Source of the DNA: Burkholderia sp.
Lineage (GTDB): Bacteria; Pseudomonadota; Gammaproteobacteria; Burkholderiales; Burkholderiaceae
DNA: 15,883 nt
Direction: 5' to 3'
Assembly: GCA_028292565.1 (NCBI GenBank)
Contig: JAQGMD010000343.1
Coordinates: forward strand, 1-15,883
Positions 7,626 through 15,883 of the stretch are shown piece by piece. The translations under genes were made by a program, and so were the position numbers. The notes beneath the pieces are model-generated. The model was not told the origin of the DNA. It saw only the letters and a list, made by a program, of their open reading frames with translations, and ran no database searches. Numbering within the stretch: the stretch's first letter is position 1; every line of letters starts with the position of its first letter.

Positions 7626-8327
7626 TCAAGCACGGAATTGCCGCAGTCCGTCCAGGTCCAGTATCTGGATGCCACCATAGTCGACCTTCAGCAGGCCTTC
7701 CTTCTCCAATACCTGCAAGGCCTGGTTCGCACGCTGGCGCGACGCGCCCGACAGGTAGCCGACTTCTTCCTGCGATATCTGCAGCAATGTATCGGTGCCT
7801 GGATAAAGGTAGGGATTGAACAGCGCCGCCAGGCAGCGCGCAACCTTGGTGTCGACGTCGAGCAGGCGGTCAAACTCCACCATGCCGATGAACTGGCCGA
7901 GGCGCTCGTTCAGTTGCAGCAGCAGAAAGCGGTTGAACGGCAGGCTGTTATCCAGCAGCCAGCCGAAGGTTGAGGCCGGCATGCGGGCAATGCGGCTGTC
8001 GCGCAATGCGGTCACATCGTATTTGCGCCGTTCCTGCTTGAGCAAGGTGCCCTCCCCGAGCCAGCCGCCCGAATGAACGCCGGCGAAAGTGACCGCCTTG
8101 CCTTCGGGTGAATTGTTGTTGATCTTGACCAGGCCATCCATAACGCCGATCCAGCAATCGACCATCTCCCCTTTGCGGCAGACGAATCCGCCCTTGGGCA
8201 CGAACTGTTCGGTGGTATCCGCTTCCACACGCGCCATCTGCCCGGGCGTCAGGAGCTTTGCCCAGATGGCCTGGCGGAGCAACTCACAAAGCGGAGGCTG
8301 AATTGAAGTCCTTGTGCAGTTCGCCAA
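7626..8327 (-). CDS. Crp/Fnr-family transcriptional regulator
   Basis: A 233-residue regulator with an N-terminal cyclic-nucleotide-binding-type barrel (about 25-130), a dimer helix (about 132-165) and a C-terminal winged helix-turn-helix (about 183-215: QISQEEVGYLSGASRQRANQAL). The start is a TTG at 8327, supported by GAGGA about 7 nt upstream; no ATG gives the full barrel. Cysteines at 4, 14, 50, 58, 165 and 148 do not match the FNR Fe-S pattern, so it is probably not an FNR-type oxygen sensor. The effector is unknown. It sits directly upstream of the MgtC-type gene and divergent from the broken ligase locus, either of which could be its target. Confidence 0.88.
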   Translation of the reverse strand: MANCTRTSIQPPLCELLRQAIWAKLLTPGQMARVEADTTEQFVPKGGFVCRKGEMVDCWIGVMDGLVKINNNSPEGKAVTFAGVHSGGWLGEGTLLKQERRKYDVTALRDSRIARMPASTFGWLLDNSLPFNRFLLLQLNERLGQFIGMVEFDRLLDVDTKVARCLAALFNPYLYPGTDTLLQISQEEVGYLSGASRQRANQALQVLEKEGLLKVDYGGIQILDLDGLRQFRA

Positions 8328-8622
8328 CGATAGTCCTCGTCAAACAGGGTTTCGATAGCATACAGCTTATGAAGCGTCTCATGCCGCGCAGAATATGGTT
8401 CGTCCTTCCACGGCCTGCGGATGGTGCGACACACTAAGGAAGGCCTAAATAAAAAGCCGATTGTCAGGCAGATGACAGCACACCAGCGGGGAAGTCTCTA
8501 GTATGCTGCAATAACGGTCGCCTCCGGCACCACGCCGGGCGATGAGAAATACAAGACCCCGTCCACACGGCGCATGGCTCTCGATTTCGATGGCTGTCGC
8601 CGTTATAAGAGAGAGTGGGACA
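8328..8622. other. 295-nt divergent intergenic region
   Basis: This is the shared upstream region of the Crp/Fnr-type regulator (-) and the broken acyl-CoA synthetase (+). I looked for FNR/CRP-type dyads and clear -35/-10 pairs and found none convincing. Short open frames run through it on both strands, without ribosome sites or recognisable products. Confidence 0.4.
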
Positions 8623-9490
8623 ATGGAGACGACAACCCAGCCCGAAGATGGCACCTTCCCGCGCTTATTGCTGCAGCATGCGCAAATGCGCCCGAACCAG
8701 CCGGCCTTCCGCGAGAAGGACCTTGGCATCTGGCAGACATCGAACTGGGCGCAGGTTGGCAACGAAGTGCGCGCGCTTGCCTGCGGCCTGGCCGCAATGG
8801 GCTTCCGGCGCGGGATGAACCTCGCGATCATCGGCGACAACCGGCCGCGCCTGTATTGGGCGATGGCGGCGGCACAATGGCTCGGCGGCGTTGCGGTGCC
8901 GCTGTATCAGGATGCTCCCGCAGTCGATATGGCCTACGTGCTGGAGAACGCCGAGGTCGAATTCGTGATCGCCGAAGACCAGGAGCAGGTCGACAAACTG
9001 CTGGAAATCCGGCAGACCCTCCCCGGCATTGCCCACATCGTGTTCGATGACGACCGCGGCATGCGTCATTACCAGCAACCCGGCCTCGTTTCTTATGAAA
9101 AGGTGCAGCAGCTCGGGCGCGAGTTCGAGGGCGAGAATCCTTACTTCTTCATGAACGAACTGAACGCCGGCGCCGGAGATGACGTCGCGATCATGCTGTA
9201 CACCTCCGGCACCACCGGCAAACCGAAGGGCGTATGCCTCACCCATGAGGCAATGATCACGGCCGCGCGGGGCGGTGTCGGTTTCGACAAGCTATCGGGC
9301 GAAGAAGACATCCTGTCGTACCTGCCGATGGCATGGGTGGGCGACAACCTGTTCTCCTACGCGCAGCAAATGGTCGCCGGTTACACGGTGAACTGTCCGG
9401 AATCGGGCGCTACGGTCACGACCGATATGCGTGAAATCGGGCCTACGTATTATTTCGCGCCGCCGCGCATCTTTGAAAACATGCTGACCA
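8623..9490 (+). pseudogene. acyl-CoA synthetase (AMP-forming), N-terminal remnant
   Basis: About 289 residues of an AMP-forming long-chain acyl-CoA synthetase-like enzyme. Visible features are the N-terminal FPRLLLQHAQMRPNQPAFREK opening, the ATP/AMP motif LYTSGTTGKPKG (about 192-203), YLPMAWVGDNLFSYAQ, and PPRIFENMLT, which normally sits about half way through such enzymes. Homologues are around 600 residues or more. After ENMLT the expected sequence stops abruptly near base 9490, and the frame runs into about 120 unrelated Arg/His/Pro-rich residues to a stop at 9846. That tail is the out-of-frame reading of a different ligase. ATG 8623 is chosen from the family-like beginning; the ribosome site is weak. 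The C-terminal half of the adenylation domain, including its catalytic lysine region, is missing, so the product should be inactive. Confidence 0.85.
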
Positions 9491-9883
9491 TTGATCCGCT
9501 TTGCCACCGGCGACCTGTCCGCAGTGCTCCCCGGCACAACCCCCTGCGGCCGCACCAACACGCGCATCAAGCGCTGGATGGGGCGTGCCGACCAGACCAC
9601 CAAGATTCGCGCGATGTTTGTCCATCCGTCGCAAGTCGCCGAAATCGCACAGCGCCATCCCGAGATACTGAAGGCGCGCCTGATTGTGACCGGCGAAATG
9701 GCCAACGATGTAATGACGCTCCACTGCGAAGTACGCGACCCGATCGCGGTCGATCCGAAGCGACCGGCCATCGTGGAAACGATACGCGATGTCACAAAAC
9801 TGCGTGGCGAAGTGATCCTGCTCGCCCCCGGCAGCCTGCCAAATGACGGCAAGGTGATCGAGGACGCGCGCAAGTACGAGTGA
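9491..9883 (+). pseudogene. PaaK-like (phenylacetate-CoA ligase family) C-terminal remnant
   Basis: From 9491, shifted relative to the upstream frame, about 130 residues read as the C-terminal domain of a phenylacetate-CoA-ligase-like AMP-binding protein: RFATGDLSAVLPG, CGRTNTRIKRWMGRADQTTK, IRAMFVHPSQVAEIAQRHPE, and then the acetate-domain strand LHCEVRD. The TGDLSAVLPG and GRADQTTK pattern belongs to the PaaK-type group and not to the long-chain synthetase group of the upstream remnant. No start codon or ribosome site serves this frame. The segment is therefore the tail of a second gene that has lost its first two-thirds. Confidence 0.8.
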
Positions 9884-14081: not shown

Positions 14082-14107
14082 GGGTAGAAAAAGAACGGTC
14101 GTGCTAG

Positions 14108-14137
14108 AGCGGATTTCAGCGCCAGGCGAAATCCGCT
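14108..14137. promoter_or_regulatory. perfect 10-bp inverted repeat in divergent promoter region
   Basis: AGCGGATTTC (14108-14117) and GAAATCCGCT (14128-14137) are exact complements with a 10-nt spacer. It lies between the nitronate monooxygenase-like and SDR genes, just beyond the TATAAT of one and before the start of the other. It could be a shared operator, or a dispersed palindrome. Confidence 0.4.
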
Positions 14138-14190
14138 GTGCATTGCAGGCTCTACAACATATATACCTCGATACCATTCAGGAGATAACC

Positions 14191-15093
14191 ATGTTCCAAC
14201 CCAGACTACTGCAAGGAAAGCGGATCCTCGTCACGGGCGGCGGCACCGGCCTCGGCCGTGCGATGGCGGAGAGATATCTTTCACTCGGCGCCGATCTCTA
14301 TATCTGTGGCCGCCGCAAACCGGTATGCGATGAAACCGCCGCGGAGCTGATGGCCAAGCATGGTGGCAGTGTCAAAACCTTCGGCATCGACATACGCGAT
14401 GCGGGAGCGGTGGACGATATGGTGGAAGAGATTTTTGCGGAAGGCGGGCTGACCGGATTGGTCAACAATGCCGCCGGCAACTTCATCTCCCCGACCGCTT
14501 CGCTGTCGCCGCGCGGCTTCGATGCCATCGCCAACATCGTGATGCATGGCACCTTCTACGTCACGCACGCGGTTGGTCGCCGCTGGGTCGACATGGCGGC
14601 CAAAGGTGAGTGGAAACCCTCCGACGGCTATCGCAGCGTGATTTCGATCATCGTGACCTGGGTGCTGAACGGCGGCCCCTATGTCGTGCCATCGGCGATG
14701 AGCAAGTCGGCAATTCATGCGATGACCATGTCGCTTGCCACCGAGTGGGCGCAATACGGCGTGCGGCTTAATGCGATCGGCCCCGGGGAGATTCCAACCG
14801 AGGGCATGAGCAAGCGGTTGAATCCGGGTGAAGCGCCAGGTGCGCGATCAGCGGCGATTAATCCGATGGGACGCGCCGGCAAGATGGAAGAGTTGCAGAA
14901 CCTGGCGACGTTCCTGATGGCTGATGGGTGTGACTGGCTGAATGGTCAGGCGATCATGATGGATGGCGGGGGACATCTTGCTACCGGCGGCAATTTCTAC
15001 GAATTGCGGTCGTGGTCGGAACAGCAGTGGACTGAGGCGCGGGAACGGATTGAGGCGCAGAATAAGAAAGATCGGGCGCAGCGGACAGTGTGA
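14191..15093 (+). CDS. SDR oxidoreductase, 2,4-dienoyl-CoA reductase-like
   Basis: A 300-residue short-chain dehydrogenase with the NADP-binding motif TGGGTGLG (15-22), ICGRRK (38-43) and NNAAGNFISPTASLSP (92-107). The last segment is close to the mammalian 2,4-dienoyl-CoA reductase pattern. The region VVPSAMSKSAIHAMTMSLATEW (165-186) and the C-terminal GNFYELRSWSEQQW also follow that family, which reduces 2,4-dienoyl-CoA during oxidation of unsaturated fatty acids. The classical YxxxK is absent: Ser168 and Lys172 remain, but the position of the reductase's catalytic Tyr (15 before Lys) is Trp157. A Tyr is present at 164. Start 14191 has AGGAGATAACC; the frame is open to 14101 without support. 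It is a single gene downstream of a shared regulatory region. Confidence 0.87.
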   Translation: MFQPRLLQGKRILVTGGGTGLGRAMAERYLSLGADLYICGRRKPVCDETAAELMAKHGGSVKTFGIDIRDAGAVDDMVEEIFAEGGLTGLVNNAAGNFISPTASLSPRGFDAIANIVMHGTFYVTHAVGRRWVDMAAKGEWKPSDGYRSVISIIVTWVLNGGPYVVPSAMSKSAIHAMTMSLATEWAQYGVRLNAIGPGEIPTEGMSKRLNPGEAPGARSAAINPMGRAGKMEELQNLATFLMADGCDWLNGQAIMMDGGGHLATGGNFYELRSWSEQQWTEARERIEAQNKKDRAQRTV

Positions 15094-15107
15094 ATGGTCA
15101 GGTTGGG

Positions 15108-15347
15108 ATTAGCACCCGCATATACGGCAAATCGCAATATGCGACGGACGTAGGTTGGGATGTAATCCCAACATTCACCCTCCGCATAAGGGCCGGCTTT
15201 TATCTGTGTGTGAATGTTGGGATTAACATCCCAACCTACGTCCATCCGATTTTAGCTTGAATGCCAATAGCAACGTCAATCCCGATCGCTGGTCTCCGTC
15301 ACAATGCGTATCCCCGACATCAACCTCGGCACATCGCATCCGCGGAA
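15108..15347. repeat. tandem unit, copy 1 (240 bp)
   Basis: First unit of a direct tandem array. It begins at ATTAGCACCCGC and ends at CATCCGCGGAA. It contains a REP-type inverted pair, then a spacer, then a stretch whose minus strand reads the end of a protein (IVTETSDRD and stop). Its left flank GGTTGGG keeps what looks like the original REP sequence, so this is the left edge of the array. It differs from copy 2 by about a dozen substitutions and one indel. Confidence 0.9.
15146..15243. repeat. REP pair (BIME-like) in copy 1
   Basis: Arms of 33 nt (15146-15178) and 34 nt (15210-15243) are complementary except for one extra A, around a 31-nt loop. Each arm holds GTAG followed by GTTGGGAT, a 3-4 nt loop and ATCCCAAC, the head-plus-hairpin layout of REP elements. 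Equivalent pairs lie at 15386-15484 and 15627-15725. Confidence 0.8.
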
Positions 15348-15588
15348 ATTAGCACCCGCGTACCCGGCAAATCGCAATGTGCGACGGACGTAGGTTGGGA
15401 TGTAATCCCAACATTCATCCTCCGCACAACGGCTGGCTTTTATCAGGGTGTGAATGTTGGGATTAAACATCCCAACCTACGTCCATCCGATTTTAGCTTG
15501 AATGCCAATAGCAACGTCAATCCCGATCGTTGGTCTCCGTCACAATGCGTATCCCCGACATCAACCTCGGCACATCGCATCCGCGGAA
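15348..15588. repeat. tandem unit, copy 2 (241 bp)
   Basis: Second unit, directly abutting copy 1 and in the same orientation. It contains the REP pair at 15386-15484 and the same gene-end remnant, read on the minus strand as IVTETNDRD and stop. The junction with copy 3 is identical to the copy 1/2 junction (CCGCGGAA|ATTAGC). Confidence 0.9.
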
Positions 15589-15770
15589 ATTAGCACCCGC
15601 GTACACGGCAAATCGCAATATGCGACGGACGTTGGTTGGTATGTAATCCCAACATTCACCCTCCGCACAACGGCTGGCTTTTATCTGGGTGTGAATGTTG
15701 GGATTAAACATCCCAACCTACGTCCATCCGACTTTAGCTTGAATGCCAATAGCAACGTCAATCCCGATCG
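15589..15770. repeat. tandem unit, copy 3 (182 bp, then diverges)
   Basis: Third unit, matching the others up to CCCGATCG at 15770. At that point copies 1 and 2 continue with GGTCTCCGTC, while this copy has about 100 nt of different sequence before GGTCTCCGT reappears at the window edge. The left arm of its REP pair (15627-15659) has two substitutions (GTTGG for GTAGG, GGTAT for GGGAT). The different stretch is coding on the minus strand. Confidence 0.85.
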
Positions 15771-15883
15771 AACAACGCTTCGCCGATGACTTCTGCCGCG
15801 CCCGCACGCACTAGCTGCGCAATCGCCCACTGCGCCAGCTCCGACTCCGGCTTATTGAGAAAGCGCCTATTGGTCTCCGTGAC
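15758..15883 (-). CDS. unidentified protein, C-terminal 41 residues (partial)
   Basis: The minus strand is open from the window edge to a TGA at 15760-15758 and gives 41 residues. They contain RRFLNKPESELAQWAIAQL, then VRAGAAEVIGEALFDRD and stop. The composition (amphipathic helix, acidic end) looks like a real protein C-terminus; I do not recognise the family. The support is comparative: copies 1 and 2 of the tandem array carry VTET(N/S) and DRD-stop in the same frame with the 33 residues in between missing. The true gene therefore continues to the right of the window, and its end was duplicated into the array. Confidence 0.65.
   Translation of the reverse strand, partial: VTETNRRFLNKPESELAQWAIAQLVRAGAAEVIGEALFDRD

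Follow-up and report, generated by a model that had tools for sequence, protein, structure and literature searches.

How does the 3′ end of an ordinary metabolic gene come to stand in repeated copies between two converging genes, and in what order did the copies arise? The question is raised by the right-hand end of the window, by which we mean the whole stretch of 15,883 nucleotides of Burkholderia sp. DNA analysed here, where a tandem array separates a short-chain dehydrogenase (SDR) gene from the truncated end of a gene for an MBL-fold hydrolase:

14191–15093, plus strand: SDR gene, the left neighbour of the array (Pfam PF13561/PF00106)
15108–15288: unit 1, with a REP pair, 3′ flank and the last codons (DRD-stop) of a captured gene end
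15348–15529: unit 2, made up as unit 1
15589–15770: unit 3, adjoining the long gene end
15758–15883, minus strand: 3′ end of the MBL-fold hydrolase gene, 41 codons and stop, truncated by the window edge

A tandem array between converging genes

The units begin at 15108, 15348 and 15589, at spacings of 240 and 241 nucleotides, the same starts and period that a preliminary description of this DNA had given. TRF reports 15108–15770 as 2.8 copies of a 241-nucleotide period (95% matches, score 1221), and the array contains a 241-nucleotide direct repeat at 97% and a 64-nucleotide stretch in three copies at 98–100%; this repetition is far beyond chance.

The SDR gene has orthologues with about 90% protein identity. 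The gene on its right reads, on the minus strand from 15883 to 15758, VTETNRRFLNKPESELAQWAIAQLVRAGAAEVIGEALFDRD-stop, a fragment that alone gives no Pfam match; using tblastn we found the same gene end in three relatives' loci fetched with the SDR gene (L001, L002 and L008; 63–69% over 39–41 residues). Its counterpart in relatives is a hydrolase of about 302 residues, publicly annotated as an MBL fold metallo-hydrolase, and Pfam PF00753 is present in P0061, the single homologue checked. The two genes converge in the window, as they do in the Noviherbaspirillum records L001, L006, L007 and L008 and in L086 (genome G166). The gap between them is 93, 34, 30, 119 and 49 bp in these five converging relatives, respectively, and thus 30–119 bp, versus 664 bp in the window; in L002, L003, L005, L009, L010, L012, L014 and L020 the genes lie 1.6–7.5 kb apart.

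The repeats did not turn up in relatives within the scope of the following searches. Three of 12 relatives gave matches, in the gene tail only, and no same-species genome was seen among the relatives searched. Unit 3 matched none of 392 family genomes in a search run without a positive control, an empty result that by itself shows nothing, and positions 14101–15883 matched 157 of the 392, none of the matches listed covering the repeat part, with at most two candidates scored per genome. A plasmid or phage origin was dropped, there being no match to 14101–15883 in a plasmid collection (near mode) or to 15094–15883 in a phage collection (distant mode).

Elsewhere in the window, positions 8542–9880 hold an AMP-binding N-terminal part (PF00501, profile positions 3–273 of 384) followed in another frame by a C-terminal-like part (9491–9880; AMP-binding_C_2, under its cut-off). 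When these were compared with 15 relatives' loci the C-terminal part matched 10 and the N-terminal part none, and the segment may be the product of a deletion that fused two paralogous genes, or else of an assembly join.

REP elements and their folding

Each unit contains two REPs in inverted orientation:

15150–15172, plus strand: REP of unit 1, GTAG head
15216–15239, minus strand: inverted REP of unit 1, GTAG head
15390–15412, plus strand: REP of unit 2, GTAG head
15456–15480, minus strand: inverted REP of unit 2, GTAG head
15631–15653, plus strand: REP of unit 3, head altered to GTTG and one stem change
15697–15721, minus strand: inverted REP of unit 3, GTAG head

These REPs are of the GTAGGTTGGGAT type. 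The plus-strand elements of units 1 and 2 read GTAG-GTTGGGAT-GTA-ATCCCAAC and the minus-strand elements of all three units GTAG-GTTGGGAT-loop-ATCCCAAC, so that the GTAG head, and with it the arrangement that defines a REP, a GT(A/G)G head directly before a short palindrome, is found in five of the six. The order + − + − + − over 15150–15721, in head-to-tail modules with a period of 240–241, makes the array a BIME, and one that includes the captured 3′ end of a gene that is not a rayt. With up to one mismatch allowed, GTAGGTTGGG occurs five times in the window, always inside the array; 200 shuffles gave 0.43 occurrences on average and at most 3. Between the SDR gene and the array, at 15097–15111 on the left border of unit 1, GTCAGGTTGGGATTA resembles by eye a further REP reduced to its broken head half.

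The REP pair of unit 3, the only unit folded, forms one long hairpin (z −4.8 for 15589–15770 as RNA and −7.8 for 15619–15740 as DNA, with 0 of 200 shuffles equally stable in either case). A structured RNA reading was dropped, as the only two Rfam matches in 15000–15883 fall far under their gathering scores (mir-75, 23 versus 60 bits; adapt33_3, 16.5 versus 70). Intrinsic terminators of the simple kind number 0 in the same interval versus a mean of 1.2 in shuffles. A role of REPs at transcript ends has been proposed in print, and it is possible that the REP pairs here could influence the transcript ends of the SDR and MBL genes. Minus-strand frames of 64 residues run from within the REP pair to the captured tails, and these are unlikely to be genes.

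Captured gene ends and a shared loss of 99 nucleotides

Two shortened copies of the gene end lie within the array:

15276–15347, minus strand: captured gene end, copy 1, (FRGC)DVPRLMSGIRIVTETS-DRD-stop, 99 nucleotides shorter than the gene
15517–15588, minus strand: captured gene end, copy 2, (FRGC)DVPRLMSGIRIVTETN-DRD-stop, 99 nucleotides shorter than the gene
15771–15869, minus strand: the 99-nucleotide gene-end stretch missing from copies 1 and 2, as placed by alignment and homologues

The preliminary description had read the minus-strand ends of copies 1 and 2 as VTET(N/S)-DRD-stop, with VTETN, 33 further residues and then DRD-stop at the window edge, and had concluded that the two copies share one in-frame difference of 99 nucleotides; all of this holds, with VTETS-DRD-stop in copy 1 and VTETN-DRD-stop in copy 2, and the difference corresponds to 15771–15869. 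Its proposal that the array captured the 3′ end of a gene is likewise supported, as DVPRLMSGIRIVTETN aligns in register with homologues just upstream of the part of the gene at the edge, in matches that are short and of weak score. Upstream of VTETN the copies read DVPRLMSGIRI, for which the homologue stretches in the same register are DVPRLLYGIPLVAETNRR (P0061, 66.7% over 18 residues) and DVPQLLSGIRLVAASNRR (P0108), again short matches with low scores (27 bits) and taken from homologues already known. Because this upstream stretch matches homologues in register, the copies appear to contain gene sequence from beyond the window edge, and a stretch like DVPRLMSGIRIV should stand directly before VTETN in the MBL gene past position 15883. 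The match lends indirect support to what the preliminary description had predicted for the bases to the right of the window. FRGC (12 nucleotides, 15577–15588 in copy 2) has no match within the MBL family, and the capture junction would therefore lie in or near those bases.

Homologues also indicate which form of the gene end is the normal one. With the C-terminal 62 residues of the L002 protein as query we found 248 proteins, and in all of the 120 listed there are 34–37 residues after the N of VTETN, compared with 36 in the long form in the window and 3 in the copies, although the query included the C-terminal segment and so favors proteins that have it. Window residues 6–35 align without gaps in 108 of the 120, and in the remaining 12 the ungapped alignment extends only to residue 32 or 33. 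A full-length MBL query, which depends less on that segment, gave matches reaching residue 298–302 of 302 in 12 of 12 matching relatives' loci, L001 being the source of the query. Since the long end is the normal form, copies 1 and 2 have lost 99 nucleotides, as had first been suggested from the window alone. Microhomology at the deletion junction is not evident by eye.

REPs, RAYTs and similar repeats in relatives

Of 195 family genomes, 22 contain REPs of the same plan (GTAGGTTGGG...CCCAACA); G104 has 161 such places and G046 has 42, and the control, a reversed pattern, gave a single match, in G107. Two such genomes place a RAYT-family frame between REPs: in contig C14 of G046 the REPs at 18183 (+) and 18785 (−) enclose the frame at 18236–18673, and in contig C3 of G107 those at 83481 (+) and 84074 (−) enclose the frame at 83541–83975. 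These flanking REPs have the same head and GTTGGG stem start as those of the array and differ in the inner part. RAYT-family matches were obtained in 10 of 10 relatives tried, 9 of them over the curated cut-off, versus 6 of 14 control genomes, 1 over the cut-off. REPs of this kind thus appear to be linked with RAYTs in relatives, and by extension may be so in the window's own genome.

We also surveyed 957,033 bases of relatives' sequence for repeats that hold gene ends; these are chosen and partly overlapping loci that include the window, with overlaps counted twice, and the counts come without a chance control. Allowing up to one mismatch in the head, there are 166 REP-like places and 27 REP-linked direct repeats, and six hits with gene ends come down to four separate places, of which G046 has three and G102 one; the window, whose MBL frame is shorter than the filter allows, does not appear among the hits. 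The four are looser cases than the array:

L149 (G046): 28 bp of a frame with a sub-threshold DUF1351 Pfam match
L151 (G046): 51 bp of an AraC/DJ-1 type regulator gene; the repeat itself has no REP, and a REP pair lies between the copies
L162 (G046): 39 bp of a GNAT gene; copies 957 bp apart
L155 (G102): 15 bp overlap with a pirin gene

In L162 a 128-bp block made of the GNAT end and a REP pair (8054–8181) recurs 957 bp downstream (9011–9138) at 94.5%; copies of this sort thus need not adjoin one another. In L149 (4610–4889) a 63-bp gene-end copy follows a REP pair at the very end of contig C14, and contigs may break at such arrays.

Comparison with known systems

The array is a phenomenon already in print for rayt genes, here on an ordinary gene. 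In the sections of PMC2817692 considered, Nunvar et al. (2010) describe, in four cases, a BIME whose inter-REP segment derives from the 3′ end of a rayt and the sequence to the next REP; a Coxiella REP starting GTAGGTTGGG is among those they list. Those BIMEs share with the array their inverted GTAG-headed REPs, head-to-tail modules, and the use of the 3′ end of a gene, together with the stretch downstream of it, as the inter-REP segment; as presented there they differ in that the captured gene is the REP transposase gene rather than that of an MBL hydrolase, and in that the array copies have a common loss of 99 nucleotides. The GTAG REP clusters of PMC3733652 resemble the array in their tandem REP dimers with flanking DNA segments and in their position between converging genes, whereas captured gene ends and an order of events are not described in the portions of that paper considered. 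REPINs, the inverted REP doublets of PMC3116915, similarly consist of two inverted REPs in one hairpin of about 100 nucleotides; in the part of that source drawn on here the doublet is a dispersing mobile unit, whereas the array doublet is known from the sequence of one locus. Our literature search found no capture of non-rayt genes by BIMEs, which is weak evidence as subscription papers lay mostly outside it, and nothing useful on partial gene duplications.

Order of events

Alignment of the three units reveals 14 differing columns, of which 7 (including one gap) set unit 1 apart from the others, 4 set unit 2 apart and 3 set unit 3 apart; between the two spacers there is 1 difference in 59 positions. 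A comparison of units 1 and 2 gives 10 differences in the 118 left-hand positions and 1 in the 123 positions of the right-hand part plus spacer (Fisher p 0.005), a descriptive value, as the split was picked after the data had been seen and the differences are few. Because units 1 and 2 diverge on the left and hardly at all on the right and in the spacer, the breakpoint of the last duplication probably lay within the REP pair; the same mosaic pattern could also come from gene conversion. With equal rates, a model of the last duplication predicts that units 2 and 3 should match on the left as closely as units 1 and 2 match on the right, and the observed 6 of 118 versus 1 of 123 is more than expected (Fisher p 0.06). 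The order put forward in the preliminary description, a duplication, a loss of 99 nucleotides and a second duplication, fits a deletion that is common to copies 1 and 2.

In the scenario we favor, the starting state would have been a REP doublet, two inverted GTAG palindromes, between the converging ends of the SDR and MBL genes. A tandem duplication would have copied the doublet with at least about 160 nucleotides of the MBL gene end, and the left duplicate, presumably free of selection for function, then lost the 99 nucleotides, a step shown by the homologues. The shortened module would have been duplicated again, probably through an unequal exchange that broke within the REP doublet, as the divergence pattern suggests, and the outcome would be a small BIME-type array with the captured end of an ordinary gene as its inter-REP segment; on a model from the literature, a RAYT could have been responsible for the placement of the REPs or for the cuts. 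That a REP doublet and MBL gene end were duplicated, one copy lost 99 nucleotides, and the module was duplicated once more to give the BIME-type array is, in our judgment, very likely, given the array with its alternating REPs, the strong hairpins, the 664-bp gap, the long homologue ends, the REPs in relatives and the rayt precedent.

The units could instead have been multiplied by active RAYT-driven amplification, such as rolling-circle copying of the module, and not by recombination between repeats. A model of this sort is proposed in the part of PMC2817692 considered, and the REPs of the same plan that flank RAYT frames in relatives would agree with it; the divergence between units varies along their length, however, which points to separate events at different times, and no RAYT is visible among the window frames, as viewed without a family search of those frames. 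We consider this a possible but distinctly less probable course of events. The closeness of the array to the window end brings to mind an assembly artefact, in which a single unit was multiplied or contigs were joined wrongly, but the units show differences of their own (at 7, 4 and 3 alignment columns), unlike false copies of one unit, and such an error is very improbable. A 99-nucleotide insertion that lengthened the right-hand gene while the copies kept the older short end, the alternative raised in the preliminary description, would suit a difference that is in frame (33 codons) and a short form at two of the three places, but it is contradicted by the long end in every listed homologue and by the relatives' loci that match out to the last residues of the protein, and is thereby ruled out with hardly any probability left to it.

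Implications

The captured ends run in the same direction as the MBL gene and have about 48 nucleotides in common with it. It is conceivable, though we think it most improbable, that these short ends act as silent cassettes. In that case a single crossover would remove a unit, and the MBL hydrolase would stay in frame and keep its DRD-stop but lack 33 C-terminal residues; REP arrays would then provide these bacteria with a natural means of remodeling the C-termini of proteins. The locus, otherwise an ordinary change between two converging genes, indicates that the growth of a tandem REP array can carry along the end of an ordinary metabolic gene, beyond the REP transposase gene, and the common deletion together with the mosaic of differences provides a trail for testing how BIMEs grow.
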